A DNA stretch of 64,000 bases, taken from Verrucomicrobiota bacterium (GTDB lineage: Bacteria > Verrucomicrobiota > Verrucomicrobiia > Chthoniobacterales > UBA10450). The DNA lies in NCBI GenBank assembly GCA_003218975.1, contig QHPD01000105.1, positions 1 to 64,000 of the forward strand. The letters are read 5' to 3'. Position 1 is the first letter of the stretch. The number at the start of each line of letters is the position of its first letter. A model generated the notes under the pieces. The model ran no database searches and was not told the origin of the DNA. It was given only the letters and a program-made list of their open reading frames with translations. Of the stretch, positions 13,081 through 39,729 are shown piece after piece. The translations under genes were made by a program, and so were the position numbers.

Positions 13081-13138
13081 GTGATTCGCTAATTCGTTAC
13101 ATCGATTCACGATTCACGACTCACGATTCACGCGACCG
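13081..13138. repeat. Intergenic word repeat (GATTCACGATTCACGA)
   Basis: The words GTGATTCG, AATTCGTTACATCG and three near-tandem GATTCACGA/GACTCACGA units fill the space between purH and the AraC gene. The motif ATTCGTTACATCG recurs at 14.13 kb, and GTTACATCGTGAATC at 63.46 kb. Confidence 0.6.
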
Positions 13139-13140
13139 AT

Positions 13141-14085
13141 TCAGCGATCGAGAATCACGTTTTTCGCCGCGGGATAAAGCACAGGGCAACAACCGATCGT
13201 TTGACAAAACGCTTTGCTAAAATGGCTGAGGCTGGAATAACCGACTTCGGTCGCGGCCTCGGTGACATTGTAGCGTCCACTGCGCAACAGCTCCGCGGCG
13301 CGTTCCATCCGCACATTGCGCAGATATTGCGGAATCGTGAGACCAACCTCGCGGGAAAAAATACGGCTCAGGTAAAACGGACTACATCCCACCTCTTGGC
13401 CCAACATTTCCAGCGTCGGCGGGTTGATCAGATCGCGCCCCAGAATCTCCTTGACCCGCTCGACGCGCTCCCGCGCTACGCGTTTTTGCCGCACGCAGAA
13501 AAATTCCCGGTCTTTTGGCGCGAAAAGAAAATGCGCCATCAGCTCGAGTGCTTTGCTTTGGTACCAGAGAATCTGGGCCGCTTTCGCTACCGGCGGTTCG
13601 CGCAAGCTCGCCACGACGTTACGTTGTTGGATTGACATCAGCCGCGTCGGCGCAACCACGGTCACGTTGCTATCACCGAAAATCACGCGGCGAATCGCTG
13701 GCTCGAGATCGGCTTCGATTTGCACAAATTGTTTCTGTAAGTGCGAGCGCGAAAATTCCAACGTAACAAATTGGTGATGATCACGCGCGTGCCGCGACGC
13801 CGGCAATGGTTCGTCGGCGACTGCGTAGTAGCCGGAGTTGCCCGGGAGATAATCACTGCGCGTCTGGCCTCGTGTGCCAACCGCGCCGCGGCCATCGAGA
13901 TTCAGACAAAACTCCAGGCTGTGCGGATGAAAACTGCGGCCCCAATCGAGCGCTTGCTCGGTTCGAAAATCATGCCACTCGATGCTCACGCCTAGGCGAT
14001 CGAAATCGCCATAAAGCTGACGCCAGCCTGGGGCCACCTCCTTCCACGCGTCCTGCTCGCCGTGCGTTGCCTCATTCGAAACCAT
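13141..14085 (-). CDS. AraC-family transcriptional regulator
   Basis: The C-terminal 100 residues form the double helix-turn-helix of the AraC/XylS family: NPPTLEMLGQEVGCSPFYLSRIFSREVGLTIPQYLRNVRMERAAELL, then NVTEAATEVGYSSLSHFSKAFCQTIGCCP. The N-terminal 180 residues are a probable cupin-like ligand-binding domain (HSLEFCLNLDGRG). At 314 residues it has normal length. Its target is unknown; no divergent neighbour shares an obvious promoter. Confidence 0.9.
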   Translation of the reverse strand: MVSNEATHGEQDAWKEVAPGWRQLYGDFDRLGVSIEWHDFRTEQALDWGRSFHPHSLEFCLNLDGRGAVGTRGQTRSDYLPGNSGYYAVADEPLPASRHARDHHQFVTLEFSRSHLQKQFVQIEADLEPAIRRVIFGDSNVTVVAPTRLMSIQQRNVVASLREPPVAKAAQILWYQSKALELMAHFLFAPKDREFFCVRQKRVARERVERVKEILGRDLINPPTLEMLGQEVGCSPFYLSRIFSREVGLTIPQYLRNVRMERAAELLRSGRYNVTEAATEVGYSSLSHFSKAFCQTIGCCPVLYPAAKNVILDR

Positions 14086-14128: not shown

Positions 14129-14178
14129 TGATTCGTTACATCGGATCACGAATCTTGAATCTTGAGTCTCGATTTACG
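14129..14178. repeat. Intergenic word repeat
   Basis: GTGATTCGTTACATCGGATC and ACGAATCTTGAATCTTGAGTC are variants of the words at 13.1 and 63.5 kb. They lie upstream of the AraC gene, between it and the next minus-strand stop. Confidence 0.5.
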
Positions 14179-22980: not shown

Positions 22981-24103
22981 CTACTCTTTGGCCGCTTTTT
23001 CTCCGCGCAACTTCGCCTGGATGAACATGTCGATGTTGCCGTCCATGACGTCCTGAACGTTGCTGGTTTCCGCGCCTGTTCGATGATCCTTCACCATCTG
23101 GTACGGCTGGAAAATGTAGGACCGAATCTGGTTGCCCCAGGCAATTTCGCCTTTTTCTGAATATTGCCGATCGATCTCAGAGCGTTTTTTGTCCTCTTCG
23201 ATTTCGTAAAGCTTCGCCTTCAACATTTTCATCGCGAGCTCGCGATTGCGTCCCTGGCTGCGCTCGGCCTGGCAAGCGACGACGATACCGGTTGGCTTGT
23301 GCAGGACGCGCACAGCAGTTTCCACTTTGTTCACGTTTTGCCCACCCTTGCCGCCGCTACGAAACGTGTCGATCTCCAGATCGGCGGGATTGATTTCGAT
23401 CGGCGTCGTATCCGCGATTTCCGGCACCACATCGACGCTGGCGAACGAGGTGTGCCGGCGTTTGTTTGCATCAAACGGCGAGATTCGCACCAGCCGATGC
23501 ACACCACGCTCGGTCTGAAGGTGGCCATAAGCGTACTCGCCGGTCGCCAGTAAGGTCACAGACTTAACGCCGACCTCTTCGCCCTGTTGAATGTCCACTG
23601 TCTGCGATTTGAAGCCGCTTCGCTCAATCCAGCGCTGATACATCCGCAGCAACATGTCGGCCCAATCGCATGACTCGGTGCCGCCCGCCCCGGAGTGAAT
23701 GGTCAGAAACGCGTTCGCGCGATCGTGTTCGCCGGAAAGAAATTGCCGCAGCTCGAACTCGTCCAGTTTGTGCAGCAGGCGAGCATGCTCCGTCGCAACT
23801 TCTTTTTCAGCTCGCTCGCGCGCAACTGGATCGTTTTCTTCGGCAGCTAACTGCTGCAATGCATTAAAATCCTCGATTTCGCGTTCCAGCTCATGAAACG
23901 GATTGATAACGGAACGTAACCGGGAGACTTCCTCGACATCGGCCTGAGCGCGCTCGCGATTCGACCAGAAATCAGGCGCTGTCATTCGCGCCTCAATAGC
24001 CGCTAGTTTGTTTTGGAGTTTCTCTACGTCAAAGAAACCTCCCCAGCTCGCGCACGCGCGATTTTACATCCTCGGCATTCACGGTAGAAAGGTCAGTTGG
24101 CAT
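22981..24103 (-). CDS. prfB: Peptide chain release factor 2, with programmed +1 frameshift
   Basis: The ORF track shows only residues from MTAPDFW on. The full gene starts at the ATG at 24103: 24 codons ([24 protein letters not shown]) lead to CTT TGA, and skipping the T at 24031 continues [22 protein letters not shown] to the stop at 22981, giving 373 residues. Domains match RF2: the GGQ motif ([16 protein letters not shown]) that triggers peptide release is present, and the SPF tripeptide that reads UGA/UAA appears as RISPFD. Expression is autoregulated by RF2 level through the frameshift. Confidence 0.96.
24028..24047 (-). promoter_or_regulatory. prfB +1 frameshift site
   Basis: On the minus strand the sequence is GGGGAGG-TTT-CTT-TGA-C. 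A Shine-Dalgarno-like GGGGAGG lies three bases before the slippery CTT, followed by a UGA stop and C, the same order and spacing as in the well-studied E. coli prfB site. When RF2 is scarce the ribosome slips forward one base. Confidence 0.95.
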
Positions 24104-24179: not shown

Positions 24180-24329
24180 GGGTAGCGCACCCGTCTCGCG
24201 TGCTGGCGAGCACGTCCTCGCGATCGCGAACTTTCTTTTCGCTCGCTCATCTTCGCTGCTGAACGAAACCAAAGGAAAGATTGTTTCGGCGCGACGCCGA
24301 AACCGGCACGCGAGACGCGTGTTCTACCC
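24180..24329. repeat. 150-bp inverted-repeat element, copy 1
   Basis: The element begins GGGTAGCGCACCCGTCTCG and ends with the near reverse complement (CGAGACGCGTGTTCTACCC). Inside the right end is the hairpin GTTTCGGCG-CGA-CGCCGAAAC. It is 150 bp, lies 4 bp past the ftsB-like stop codon, and is flanked by AATC on both sides, a possible target duplication. It is inverted relative to copy 2 at 38268. No ORF of note lies inside, as expected of a non-autonomous element. Confidence 0.75.
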
Positions 24330-24332
24330 AAT

Positions 24333-24698
24333 CTATTTCCGAGCGGAATCGGTGGGTCTCGATTTTCCGGCGCGCGCCGACTCGAGACGAAAAATTGTTT
24401 CACCTTCCTTCATGAGATCGAGGCGATCGCGCGCGATGGTCTCCAGATAAGTCACGTCCGTCTTCAGGAGGTTGACCTCGCGCGTCTGGCGAGCAAGCAG
24501 GCTTTGCTGCTCGTTCACTTGTTGTTGCAATTGATCAATCTCGGCGCGGCTTTGCATCAGTTTCTTGTACGGCGGCACGAACAAACTCACGATCACCAGC
24601 CAGACCGCGAGGACGAGCAGGACGTAAAGAACTCGGTTGAGTCGCTGCCAGACTGTAGCTTGGCGACGCTCGCGGAAATCGGCGTAAGGCTGATCCAC
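24333..24698 (-). CDS. Septum formation initiator (FtsB/DivIC) family protein
   Basis: The 121-residue protein has a short cytoplasmic start, one transmembrane helix (LYVLLVLAVWLVIVSLFV, about residues 26-43) and a periplasmic coiled coil (SRAEIDQLQQQVNEQQSLLARQTREVNLLKTD), followed by the typical YLETIARDRLDLMKEGETIF. FtsB joins FtsL and FtsQ in the divisome. Order with the enolase remnant upstream is that of the common eno-ftsB pair. The 150-bp element sits right after its stop. Confidence 0.88.
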   Translation of the reverse strand: MDQPYADFRERRQATVWQRLNRVLYVLLVLAVWLVIVSLFVPPYKKLMQSRAEIDQLQQQVNEQQSLLARQTREVNLLKTDVTYLETIARDRLDLMKEGETIFRLESARAGKSRPTDSARK

Positions 24699-32975: not shown

Positions 32976-33686
32976 TTACACCTTTTGCTGAAGAATAAAC
33001 TCGGCCAGTGGCAAATCTCGTGGATAGGTAATTTTGAAATTGAAGTCGTCATTGAGAACAAGTGCGACCTCGCGGCCGAGTCGTTCAACTGCGGAAACTT
33101 CGTCAGTCACTGAAACATTGTCCGCATAAATGGCGCGATAAGCCTCTTCGATTAGCGCGCGCTCGAAAATCTGCGGCGTCTGCATAGCGTAAAGTTGATG
33201 TCGATCCACTGAGCCGGTGACCAGAAGAACTTGTCCTGAGCGCGAGTCGAATTGATTGGCGTCTGCGCGTTTTAATGTGTCGTTGATCGGCTCGGCCAGG
33301 GTCGCCGCGCCGTGGGCGCGACACTGCTCGAAGACGCGCTCGATCCGCTCCGGAGTAATCAGAGGACGCGCGGCATCATGCACAGCAACATATTTTGCGT
33401 CGGCGCTCAGGCGCGCCAGACCAGCGCGCACGGAATCTTGCCGATGTTCGCCGCCAATAACGATGGATCGGACCTTCTTAAAGCTTCGATCACGCGCAAT
33501 CTTTCCGATTTCGGCATGTCGATCTACGCAGGCGACGACGACGATTTCGCTGACAGAACCGGCCTCCTCGAACGCGCAGATGGTATGCGCGATCACCGGC
33601 GCGCCGGCGATATTTGCAAACAATTTGTTAAACCCCATGCGCCGACTGCTGCCTGCGGCGACGATGATGGCCGTTAGCATTAGCAA
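32976..33686 (-). CDS. ispD: 2-C-methyl-D-erythritol 4-phosphate cytidylyltransferase
   Basis: The 236-residue protein has the CTP-binding start AIIVAAGSSRRMGFNKLFANIAG, the VAVHDAARPLITPE motif, and the C-terminal SVTDEVSAVERLGREVALVLND and NFKITYPRDL. IspD performs the third step of the MEP isoprenoid pathway. ispF, often adjacent, is not seen. yqeY lies upstream across a long inverted repeat. Confidence 0.94.
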   Translation of the reverse strand: MLMLTAIIVAAGSSRRMGFNKLFANIAGAPVIAHTICAFEEAGSVSEIVVVACVDRHAEIGKIARDRSFKKVRSIVIGGEHRQDSVRAGLARLSADAKYVAVHDAARPLITPERIERVFEQCRAHGAATLAEPINDTLKRADANQFDSRSGQVLLVTGSVDRHQLYAMQTPQIFERALIEEAYRAIYADNVSVTDEVSAVERLGREVALVLNDDFNFKITYPRDLPLAEFILQQKV

Positions 33687-33691
33687 AAAAG

Positions 33692-33785
33692 GAAACGCCC
33701 AACGCCCAACGTCGAACGCCCAATCTCAAATTCAGAAACCAACAATTCGGCGTTGGATGTTGGGCGTTGAGCGTTCGGTGTTTTC
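33692..33785. repeat. Long imperfect inverted repeat of AACGCCC words
   Basis: The left arm GAAACGCCCAACGCCCAACG... (33692-33720) is close to the reverse complement of the right arm ...TTGGGCGTTGAGCGTTCGG (33749-33785). Both arms are made of CCCAACG-type words, with an AT-rich loop between. It lies between the yqeY stop and the ispD start and could fold into a strong RNA hairpin that ends yqeY transcription or uncouples the two genes. Confidence 0.7.
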
Positions 33786-37283: not shown

Positions 37284-38228
37284 CTAATTCTGCGCAACAA
37301 TTTTCTCAGCGCACTTCCGGACCGATTCCGCGTCGCTCGCGGATATCACATCGACGTCTCCACACGTGCGTCGCAGCAAAGCAGCCAGCACGCCGCCCGG
37401 CCCCAGCTCAATAAAAAGGTCGGAACCACGCTCGGCGAGCCGCTCCATACAATCGAGCCAGCGCACCGTGCCCGTGACTTGATCTTGCAAAGTGCGGCGA
37501 ATTTCAATCGGCGTTTCCACTTCTTCACCGGTCACATTGCTAATCACTGGAAAGCGCGGCGGTTGCACCGGAACATGCTGAAGCACTGCGCCAAGTTTCT
37601 TATATGCGCTTTCCATCAGACGTGAATGATACGCACCCCCAACATTGAGTAATGTCGCCCGGCGAATACCATATTCCTTGGCTACGCCGACTGCCGCTTC
37701 CACTTTCGCCAGCTCACCCGAGATGACGACCTGGCCCGGCGCATTGATGTTCGCAATATCGACATCTTCATCCGCTGCGAGCTGGCGCACCATGTTTTCA
37801 TCCGAACCGATCATCGCCGCCATCGCTCCATTTGTCGCCGCGCAAGCTTCGTCCATCAATTCGCCGCGCCGCTGCACGAGCTTGAGGCCCGTGGCAAAAT
37901 CAAAGGTGCCAGCGGCCGCGTGCGCAGTCATTTCGCCTAACGACAAGCCGGCTGCGCCGCCGACCGGAAAATTGCCCGCCAACTCGCGCAGAACCGCTAG
38001 GCAGGCCAGTCCGTGAACCAAAAGTGCAGGCTGGCAATTCGAAGTCTTGGTCAATTCCTCGATAGGACCAGTCCACGCAATTTCGCTCAAGTTTCGGCCG
38101 AGAATCTCGTCCGCTTCTCGAAACAAATCCGCCGCGACAGGAAATTGGTCTGCGAGATCACGGCCCATTCCGATGGTCTGCGCGCCCTGGCCCGCGAAAA
38201 GCAGTGCGATTTTTTTTGCCATACGCAC
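37284..38228 (-). CDS. fabD: Malonyl-CoA:ACP transacylase
   Basis: The 314-residue protein begins LLFAGQGAQTIGMGRDLA and has the catalytic-Ser motif as AGLSLGEMTA (about residues 95-104). Later come the Gln-x-Val strand region (NINAPGQVVISGE), the catalytic-His region GGAYHSRLMESA and NVTGEEV. It loads malonate onto acyl carrier protein for fatty acid synthesis. Other fab genes are not next to it here. The element copy 2 lies just upstream of its start. Confidence 0.93.
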   Translation of the reverse strand: MRMAKKIALLFAGQGAQTIGMGRDLADQFPVAADLFREADEILGRNLSEIAWTGPIEELTKTSNCQPALLVHGLACLAVLRELAGNFPVGGAAGLSLGEMTAHAAAGTFDFATGLKLVQRRGELMDEACAATNGAMAAMIGSDENMVRQLAADEDVDIANINAPGQVVISGELAKVEAAVGVAKEYGIRRATLLNVGGAYHSRLMESAYKKLGAVLQHVPVQPPRFPVISNVTGEEVETPIEIRRTLQDQVTGTVRWLDCMERLAERGSDLFIELGPGGVLAALLRRTCGDVDVISASDAESVRKCAEKIVAQN

Positions 38229-38267
38229 TAGTTAACGCGGTTCAATTCGTGGCGCGAGCATGATTCT

Positions 38268-38416
38268 GGGTAGCGCACGCGTCTCGCGTGTTGGTTTTGG
38301 CGTCGCGCCAAAACGAACTTTTCCCAGAGGGGACGACGAAGTGGTGGCTGCCGCAATGAATGAAAGTTCGCGACGGCGAGACACCGTCGCCAGCACGCGA
38401 GACGCGTGCGCTACCC
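38268..38416. repeat. 150-bp inverted-repeat element, copy 2
   Basis: It runs from GGGTAGCGCACGCGTCTCG to CGAGACGCGTGCGCTACCC; the 27-bp ends match as inverted repeats at 26 positions. Internal hairpins sit next to each end: GTTTTGGCG-TCG-CGCCAAAAC on the left and GCGACGG-CGAGACA-CCGTCGC on the right. At 149 bp it is nearly the same length as copy 1. It lies between the divergent fabD and nuoD genes, so it may alter their promoters. Confidence 0.8.
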
Positions 38417-38472
38417 ATTTTACGCTTGCGCGCTGATTTCCTGCCACGAGCGTAGTAAAACTTGTCGATCCT

Positions 38473-39729
38473 ATGCCTTTTACGACACGCGAAATTGAAT
38501 CACCCGACGCCGTGACACAAGTGAGTGCGGCTGACGCAGCAGTCCGAGAGCCCGATGACGACATCGGCGAGAAAATGGTCCTAAATATGGGGCCGTCGCA
38601 TCCGGCCACGCATGGCGTTTTGCGGCTAGTGCTGGAGCTCGACGGGGAGATCATTACCAAGGCCACGCCGGACATTGGTTTTCTACATCGCGGCGACGAG
38701 AAAATCGCCGAAAACATGCAATACAACCAGTTCGTCCCTTATACAGATCGGCTCGATTATCTCGCGCCGCTGTCAAACAACGTCGCCTACGCGCTGGCAG
38801 TGGAAAAGTTGATGGGCTGGGATATTCCGCCGCGCGGACAAGCGATCCGCACCATTTGCTGCGAAACCTCCCGCATTTCCTCGCACCTGCTCGGTCTCGG
38901 AGCGATGGCACTCGATCTAGGCGCGATGACAGTCTTCCTCTACACATTCACTGAGCGCGAAAAACTCTATGACCTTTTCGAGCTGCTCACTGGCGCGCGT
39001 TTCACTACCTCCTACACGCGCGTGGGCGGGCAAATCCGCGATCTGCCGGAAAATTTCATCCCGCAGCTCAAAAAATTCCTCGATGACTTCTGGCCAAGTC
39101 TCGATGAATGCGACAAACTGCTCACACGCAACCGCATTTTTGTAGATCGGACTAAAGACGTCGGAGTCATCTCGAAAGAGCGCGCCATCGCGTACGCCCT
39201 CTCCGGTCCGAATTTGCGCGGCAGCGGGATCGAACACGACTTGCGGCGCAAACATCCGTATCTTGATTACGAGAATTACGATTTCGACGTGGTGATTGGC
39301 AGCGCGGGCGATTGTTACGATCGATATCTAGTGAGGATCGAGGAAATGCGCCAAAGCGTCCGGATCTTGCGGCAAGGCATCGATAAACTTCCCAGCGGAC
39401 CAATCAACGTGGCGGATTGGAAAAATATGGCCCCGCCAAAATCGCGGGTCATGACGAAGATGGAAGAGCTGATTCATCATTTTATCGTGGTGACTGAAGG
39501 GCTCGACGCGCCGCCGGGTGAAATTTATTTCGCGGCTGAAAATCCCAAAGGCGAGCTTGGCTTTTACATCAACAGCAGAGGCGGCGGCGTGCCGTATCGG
39601 TTAAAAATTCGCGCGCCATCGTTTGTGAATCTCAGTATCCTGCCCGAACTTCTGCCGGGTTGCATGGTCAGCGACGTGCCTGCGGTATTAGGGAGTCTGG
39701 ACTTCGTCATGGGCGAATGCGACAGATAA
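38473..39729 (+). CDS. nuoD: NADH-quinone oxidoreductase subunit D
   Basis: The 418-residue protein is the 49-kDa subunit of complex I: MVLNMGPSHPATHGVLRLVLELDGE, IGFLHRGDEKIAENMQYNQFVPYTDRLDYLAP, TSYTRVGGQIRDLP, and the C-terminal VLGSLDFVMGECDR. It helps form the quinone-binding site in the peripheral arm. It opens the nuo locus here; nuoA, B and C, which usually precede it, are absent from the window. Confidence 0.97.
   Translation: MPFTTREIESPDAVTQVSAADAAVREPDDDIGEKMVLNMGPSHPATHGVLRLVLELDGEIITKATPDIGFLHRGDEKIAENMQYNQFVPYTDRLDYLAPLSNNVAYALAVEKLMGWDIPPRGQAIRTICCETSRISSHLLGLGAMALDLGAMTVFLYTFTEREKLYDLFELLTGARFTTSYTRVGGQIRDLPENFIPQLKKFLDDFWPSLDECDKLLTRNRIFVDRTKDVGVISKERAIAYALSGPNLRGSGIEHDLRRKHPYLDYENYDFDVVIGSAGDCYDRYLVRIEEMRQSVRILRQGIDKLPSGPINVADWKNMAPPKSRVMTKMEELIHHFIVVTEGLDAPPGEIYFAAENPKGELGFYINSRGGGVPYRLKIRAPSFVNLSILPELLPGCMVSDVPAVLGSLDFVMGECDR

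Follow-up and report, generated by a model that had tools for sequence, protein, structure and literature searches.

A REPIN family of a Verrucomicrobiota bacterium and its RAYT transposase, found in frame within housekeeping genes

A 150-bp element that occurs twice in a 64,000-nt stretch of a Verrucomicrobiota genome (contig QHPD01000105.1, analysed as a whole and hereafter called the window) is a REPIN, formed by two inverted REPs, each with a second hairpin. Its arms are shared with longer elements of the same genome that carry a RAYT transposase, and these RAYTs lie in frame within the genes for RecG and MetH. With a probability of roughly three in four, we propose that this REP-RAYT lineage is a translated in-frame passenger in RecG, MetH, ThrRS, AlaRS, PriA and other proteins, that its REP ends double as DNA hairpins and protein linkers, and that it gave rise to the intergenic 150-bp elements as non-autonomous derivatives. 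An earlier note on the window had read the element as REP- or MITE-like, non-autonomous and constrained for structure, which its copy number, paired changes and RAYT-bearing relative support. That note missed the longer, asymmetric arms and the location of the autonomous copies, and of some 150-bp ones, in frame within housekeeping genes.

Architecture, copy number and covariation of the 150-bp element

The two window copies are mutually inverted and lie where the earlier note had placed them (Table 1). That note had them abutting gene ends or starts; more exactly, copy 1 lies just past the stop of the divIC-like gene, and copy 2 between the starts of the divergent fabD-like and nuoD-like genes. 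It had also called both non-coding, which holds insofar as they are intergenic; however, a frame open from end to end (GSARVSRxG...) runs through each, and family members are translated within genes elsewhere. When up to 3 mismatches are allowed, the 23-nt REP core occurs 4 times in the window compared with a mean of 0.00 in shuffles. As single-stranded DNA, both copies fold far more strongly than shuffled sequences, with z of −10.2 and −9.5 on the strands of copy 2 and of −4.5 and −5.1 on those of copy 1. No Rfam family matched the 150-bp element, and another REP family (GCACAGGCTGCCAGCCTGTG) was looked for in the window and is absent. The window also contains an inverted repeat of 40 nt (AACGCCCAACG type; 33685-33784) whose spacer measures 20 nt, unrelated to the REPIN, and dispersed short repeats of ATTCACGA/GAATCTTGA type (2087-2115, 13092-13166 and 14131-14171).

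Table 1. Positions in the window of the two REPIN copies, their parts and the neighbouring genes
Feature	Position	Strand	Details
REPIN copy 2, whole element, 149 bp	38268..38416	-	left end (LE) first on - strand
Copy 2 right-end REP	38268..38294	+	GGGTAG tag 38268-38273; hairpin CACGCG/CGCGTG 38276-38281, 38285-38290; from sequence and pair counts
Copy 2 right-end hairpin 2	38294..38314	+	GTTTTGGCG (38294-38302) / CGCCAAAAC (38306-38314)
Copy 2 GAACTTT arm	38315..38321	+	able to pair with AAAGTTC 38363-38369
Copy 2 left-end hairpin 2	38370..38390	-	GCGACGG (38370-38376) / CCGTCGC (38384-38390)
Copy 2 left-end REP	38390..38416	-	GGGTAG tag (CTACCC 38411-38416); hairpin 38394-38399 / 38403-38408
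REPIN copy 1, whole element, 150 bp	24180..24329	+	left end first on + strand
Copy 1 left-end hairpin 2 region	24206..24227	+	GCGAGCACGTCCTCGCGATCGC
Copy 1 right-end hairpin 2	24283..24303	+	GTTTCGGCG (24283-24291) / CGCCGAAAC (24295-24303)
DivIC/FtsB-like (divIC-like) gene, copy 1 neighbour	24333..24698	-	stop 3 bp from element
Peptide chain release factor gene (PCRF + RF-1 domains), copy 1 neighbour	22981..23985	-	
Acyltransferase gene (fabD-like), copy 2 neighbour	37284..38228	-	start 39 bp from element
NADH dehydrogenase 49-kDa subunit gene (nuoD-like), copy 2 neighbour	38473..39729	+	

Read left end first, the family plan begins with GGGTAG and the REP hairpin CACGCG-TCT-CGCGTG, followed by a second hairpin and GAACTTTC; about 35–40 variable bases then lead to GAAAGATT or GAAAGTTC, a distinct second hairpin (GTTTCGGCG-CGA-CGCCGAAAC) and the inverted REP of the right end. 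Both ends bear the GGGTAG (or GGGGAG) tag and the CACGCG/CGCGTG hairpin. The arms, each comprising REP, second hairpin and GAACTTTC/GAAAGTTC, are unlike in that the left hairpin reads GCGANNG... and the right one GTTTCGGCG.... What had been described as 27-bp terminal inverted repeats are thus really asymmetric arms of about 55–57 bp.

In the genome that contains the window (3.06 Mb in 165 contigs), BLAST with copy 2 gave 62 matches, and a covariance model built from 16 copies gave at least 53. The same model was positive in 34 of 34 congeners and in 46 of 58 genomes overall, most of the genomes compared being MAGs. Matches to the whole query were found at 12 places in the home genome, 149–151 bp long with one exception of 145 bp, and with only 72–79% identity to copy 2 (copy 2 itself aside), which indicates that length and plan are kept while the sequence drifts. 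Among 17 full-length copies viewed in context, only a pair in dnaE2 lies inside a recognizable gene.

About 91% of the cells in the alignment of copies are paired, whether a long-hairpin or a separate-hairpin model is assumed. The covariation score, the number of paired cells and the number of double-change cells all exceeded 500 of 500 shuffles, with the modest power of 16 related copies; the clearest covarying pair is C-G in 9 copies and G-C in 6. Since compensatory changes in inverted DNA repeats can also arise by templated repair, covariation among 16 related copies does not separate DNA structure from RNA structure. The T-A/C-G difference that had been reported between hairpins of the window copies is real, but its direction is opposite to that claimed, as C-G is found in 15 of 16 copies and T-A is therefore derived, in window copy 2 alone. 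The earlier note had named a lack of further copies, or hairpin arms varying without paired changes, as what would speak against its reading; copies are numerous and changes are paired, so neither is the case.

The flanks of the 17 copies contain no target-site duplication, only T-rich bases at the ends, and no exact empty site for the window copies was found among orthologous sites. At the copy-2 site, relatives have decayed orthologues, another REPIN family or short divergent spacers, and therefore no exact junction can be drawn there. In four orthologues (L110, L114, L115 and L116) of the spacer at 38229-38472, from other species, the occupant belongs to another REPIN family (GGGGAGCACAGGCTGCCAGCCTGTG) that matches in size and plan, reflecting either a recurrent insertion spot or family replacement.

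RAYT-bearing elements and their host genes

The earlier note had pointed to a possible full-length relative with a transposase, and such a relative, a RAYT flanked by both arms, was found. Two places in the home genome (contigs C63 and C150) carry Y1 transposase domains flanked by inverted REPs of the family, over spans of 614 and 575 bp, and these elements end in counterparts of the arms seen in the 150-bp form. In a congener, the two flanks of the RAYT match both arms of window copy 2 at 91–93%. The transposase domain is that of a RAYT (Pfam Y1_Tnp); the RecG-embedded one scores 81.6 bits against NCBIfam NF047646 (cut-off 80), and a fold search matched the RAYT domain to 4er8, a RAYT on a REP hairpin (E 2e-6), with RecG (1gm5) in the same chain, while a PDB sequence search with the RAYT gave no match. 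The HUH motif and catalytic Tyr are present in the home RAYT and most others. The motif was part of the search pattern for one set of relatives, which means that its conservation there cannot count as independent evidence; it was not selected for in the order-wide set of matches. In some embedded RAYTs, the putative catalytic Tyr is lost (His in L072, Ser in L095). The named relatives to which the transposase led belong to the Verrucomicrobia, with Chthoniobacterales among the nearest. REPIN density is 17.3 per Mb in genomes with the RAYT family versus 9.0 without (p 9e-5, uncorrected for relatedness and based on counts that are lower bounds). Other Y1 transposase genes (C129, C159, C2 and C51) were considered as partners and rejected, as their loci contain no family REP.

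The RAYT at C63 lies in frame in a RecG ORF of 907 aa, between 'LRTAARQ' and 'IVVGTHALLY', and C150 holds two RAYTs in a single MetH frame (1230 aa), the first cut by the contig end. A third RAYT of the home genome, with other arms, is inside CarB; at L067:932-4993, CarB has an in-frame RAYT with a different REP-encoded arm pair (RQAGGPSVLTGEMPVF / RQAGRLSALTAEVAVF). In relatives, RAYTs are in frame in RecG, ThrRS, AlaRS and MetH, and share a frame with Pfam domains of IleRS, ValRS, PriA, PurH, IspG, PLP decarboxylase, MmeI-type enzymes and DNA methylases; RdgB and uracil-DNA glycosylase were recognized as further hosts by eye. Stop-free frames of at least 500 aa hold 118 of the 150 RAYT matches listed in this order, compared with 3.3% of frame positions in the window. 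Phylum-wide, about 14 of about 155 matches listed (~9%) exceed 500 aa, and most RAYTs stand alone. Embedding therefore appears, among the matches listed, to be a habit of the present RAYT lineage rather than of RAYTs generally.

Individual in-frame RAYTs were seen in RdgB/HAM1-like genes of Phycisphaerales and Planctomycetes (L159, L173, L182 and L195), with GTGFQPV-type REP-encoded peptides; with a uracil-DNA glycosylase in Hydrogenophilales (L204); ahead of an archease-like protein in Deltaproteobacteria (L185); and in MmeI-type restriction-modification enzymes (L207 and L171), one of them in the isolate genome of Fibrobacter intestinalis ATCC 43854.

On the RAYT tree, the host gene is clustered although not of single origin (23 changes versus 50.9 in shuffles), a pattern that fits prolonged residence in a given gene with an occasional change of host. 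In the home genome, RecG appears to be single-copy, there being one strong match and a second, weaker one to a relative of Mfd length that is found across genomes. The RecG insertion site is a short variable stretch in insert-free congeners; across relatives, the same loop carries RAYTs whose arms are of four or more kinds and, in one case, a RAYT-less insert of 71 aa. In an AlphaFold model of RecG-RAYT, the RAYT core has a pLDDT of ~80–87 and the arms <30, as would be expected for a domain on flexible linkers, the remainder being too poor to judge; in the predicted ThrRS-RAYT structure, only the RAYT domain is of usable quality.

Among six RecG-RAYT orthologues, the RAYT has a median dN/dS of 0.08 (from 9 of 15 pairs, the others being saturated) and RecG 0.06–0.09, and by this measure the embedded RAYT is under purifying selection of RecG-like strength. 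The translated arms have a dS of 0.13 (LE) and 0.27 (RE), compared with ~1.4 in flanking sequence, five to ten times higher. Arm DNA is thus either constrained beyond the protein that it encodes or homogenized; exchange between copies, instead of selection, could account for the low values. No ATG, GTG or TTG occurs in frame between 40 codons upstream and the 12th domain codon of the home RecG-embedded RAYT, and a fusion is therefore most likely the only form in which it is translated. Judging from the reading frames, the housekeeping protein appears to be synthesized with the transposase as one of its parts.

The 150-bp form is likewise found in frame. The dnaE2 of the home genome (L239:522-3727, G000:C75) contains two copies in opposite orientations, each adding ~50 aa. 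Between them a stretch is missing and the frame changes, whereas the frames of relatives are long and uninterrupted; this dnaE2 is therefore either broken (a pseudogene) or misassembled. In six relatives, dnaE2 carries in-frame RAYT-less forms of 101–146 bp with similar REPs. Lengths of 2 mod 3 characterize 8 of 8 in-frame copies versus 4 of 14 intergenic copies of the home genome (Fisher p 0.0015), an excess that is partly built in, since an out-of-phase copy ends the frame inspected.

Proposed mechanism and alternative explanations

We hypothesize that the REPIN probably derives from a REP-RAYT-REP element through loss of the transposase gene. In E. coli, TnpA-REP is established to recognize tagged REP hairpins on single strands. 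The present RAYT, as an HUH/Y1 single-strand nuclease, may similarly recognize tagged hairpins on ssDNA, e.g., the lagging-strand template, and may spread REPIN and RAYT forms alike, leaving no target duplications; no transposition event was seen. Where an element lands in a gene, translation would continue through its arms, which would form a flexible linker without stops (GSARVSRxGDGVxPSRTF ... RRDAETSTRDACATQ). The RAYT would fold independently, such that a needed enzyme may tolerate the insertion in one of its surface loops and the autonomous form would persist. An embedded RAYT would borrow the promoter and start codon of its host gene and would be safe from frame-breaking decay, because such changes would damage the host gene. 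We consider this account of origin and persistence, taken as a whole, very probable.

Purifying selection as strong as that on RecG might instead suggest that the embedded RAYT has been domesticated as a functional domain of its host enzyme, such as a DNA-targeting module of RecG, and several hosts (RecG, PriA, DnaE2 and UDG) do act on DNA. However, ThrRS, AlaRS, MetH, PurH and IspG are hosts as well, the RecG of many congeners has no RAYT, and a single RecG loop accommodates RAYTs with different arms and once an insert lacking the RAYT, making domestication unlikely. It is still harder to credit that intein-like or IStron-like splicing takes out the RAYT segment, either ahead of translation or following it, leaving a host enzyme made without it. 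Although splicing would account for the tolerance of an insertion of >200 aa, Pfam scans found no Hint/intein domain in the fusions and Rfam no group I or II intron family, the insertion points are variable loops or interdomain linkers, and both junctions are in phase, which removal at the RNA or DNA level would not need. In that Rfam scan, the RecG, MetH and CarB loci gave only tRNAs, which also speaks against an IStron (group I intron with an IS605-type transposase).

The 150-bp element could also be a domesticated regulatory or RNA hairpin, acting as terminator or mRNA stabilizer, with its likeness to RAYT ends merely a matter of origin. Both strands fold strongly, paired changes are present, both window copies adjoin gene ends or starts, and such roles have been reported for REPs elsewhere (PMC3733652). 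By contrast, the ends are symmetric and mobile-like, copies are numerous, several lie in frame within dnaE2, pointing either way, copy 2 sits between divergent gene starts where relatives show a decayed copy, a member of another REPIN family or no such element, and no Rfam family matched; we consider this reading improbable.

Relation to known systems and significance

REPIN/BIME sequences with their RAYT have been described previously (Bertels and Rainey, 2011; PMC3116915). As in that system, we find inverted pairs of GTAG-tagged REP hairpins, many extragenic copies and a cognate RAYT between the same REPs; unlike there, each arm has a second, arm-specific hairpin, and the cognate RAYT is not a free-standing gene but lies in frame within housekeeping genes. 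The REPIN/BIME with RAYT system was reportedly also treated by Ton-Hoang and colleagues in 2012. In-frame REPs in genes are already known: intragenic GTAG REPs, reported to add ~20–82 aa, have been described in dnaE2 and other genes, including in Opitutus terrae (Di Nocera et al., 2013; PMC3733652). The likeness extends to REPs and REP dimers in frame in verrucomicrobial protein genes, DNA-repair genes included; the difference is that a whole RAYT gene of >200 aa is carried in frame here and kept under selection. Rickettsia palindromic elements are similar in that palindromic DNA of mobile-like character is tolerated within proteins as an in-frame insert. We know of no transposase for these elements, and the likeness is one of description. 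Inteins with homing endonucleases also place a nuclease domain in frame in essential enzymes at recurrent sites, but here no splicing domain was found, the sites are variable loops rather than conserved active sites, and the nuclease is a RAYT with REP ends. Like MITEs, the 150-bp element is short, has inverted termini and resembles an internal-deletion derivative of a transposase element; unlike classical MITEs, it has no target-site duplication and its transposase is Y1/HUH, not DDE. In the open-access papers searched, we came across no account of RAYT genes lying in frame within housekeeping genes, and their novelty is provisional to that extent.

RAYTs persist as low-copy, apparently stable genes, and residence within a needed ORF offers a concrete, testable answer as to how, since it would give borrowed expression and protection against frame-breaking loss. 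A further implication is that aminoacyl-tRNA synthetases, helicases and metabolic enzymes naturally accommodate large inserted domains. Transposase domains annotated within such proteins should not be written off as assembly errors. The REP arms would be sequences under DNA-hairpin and protein-linker constraint at once.
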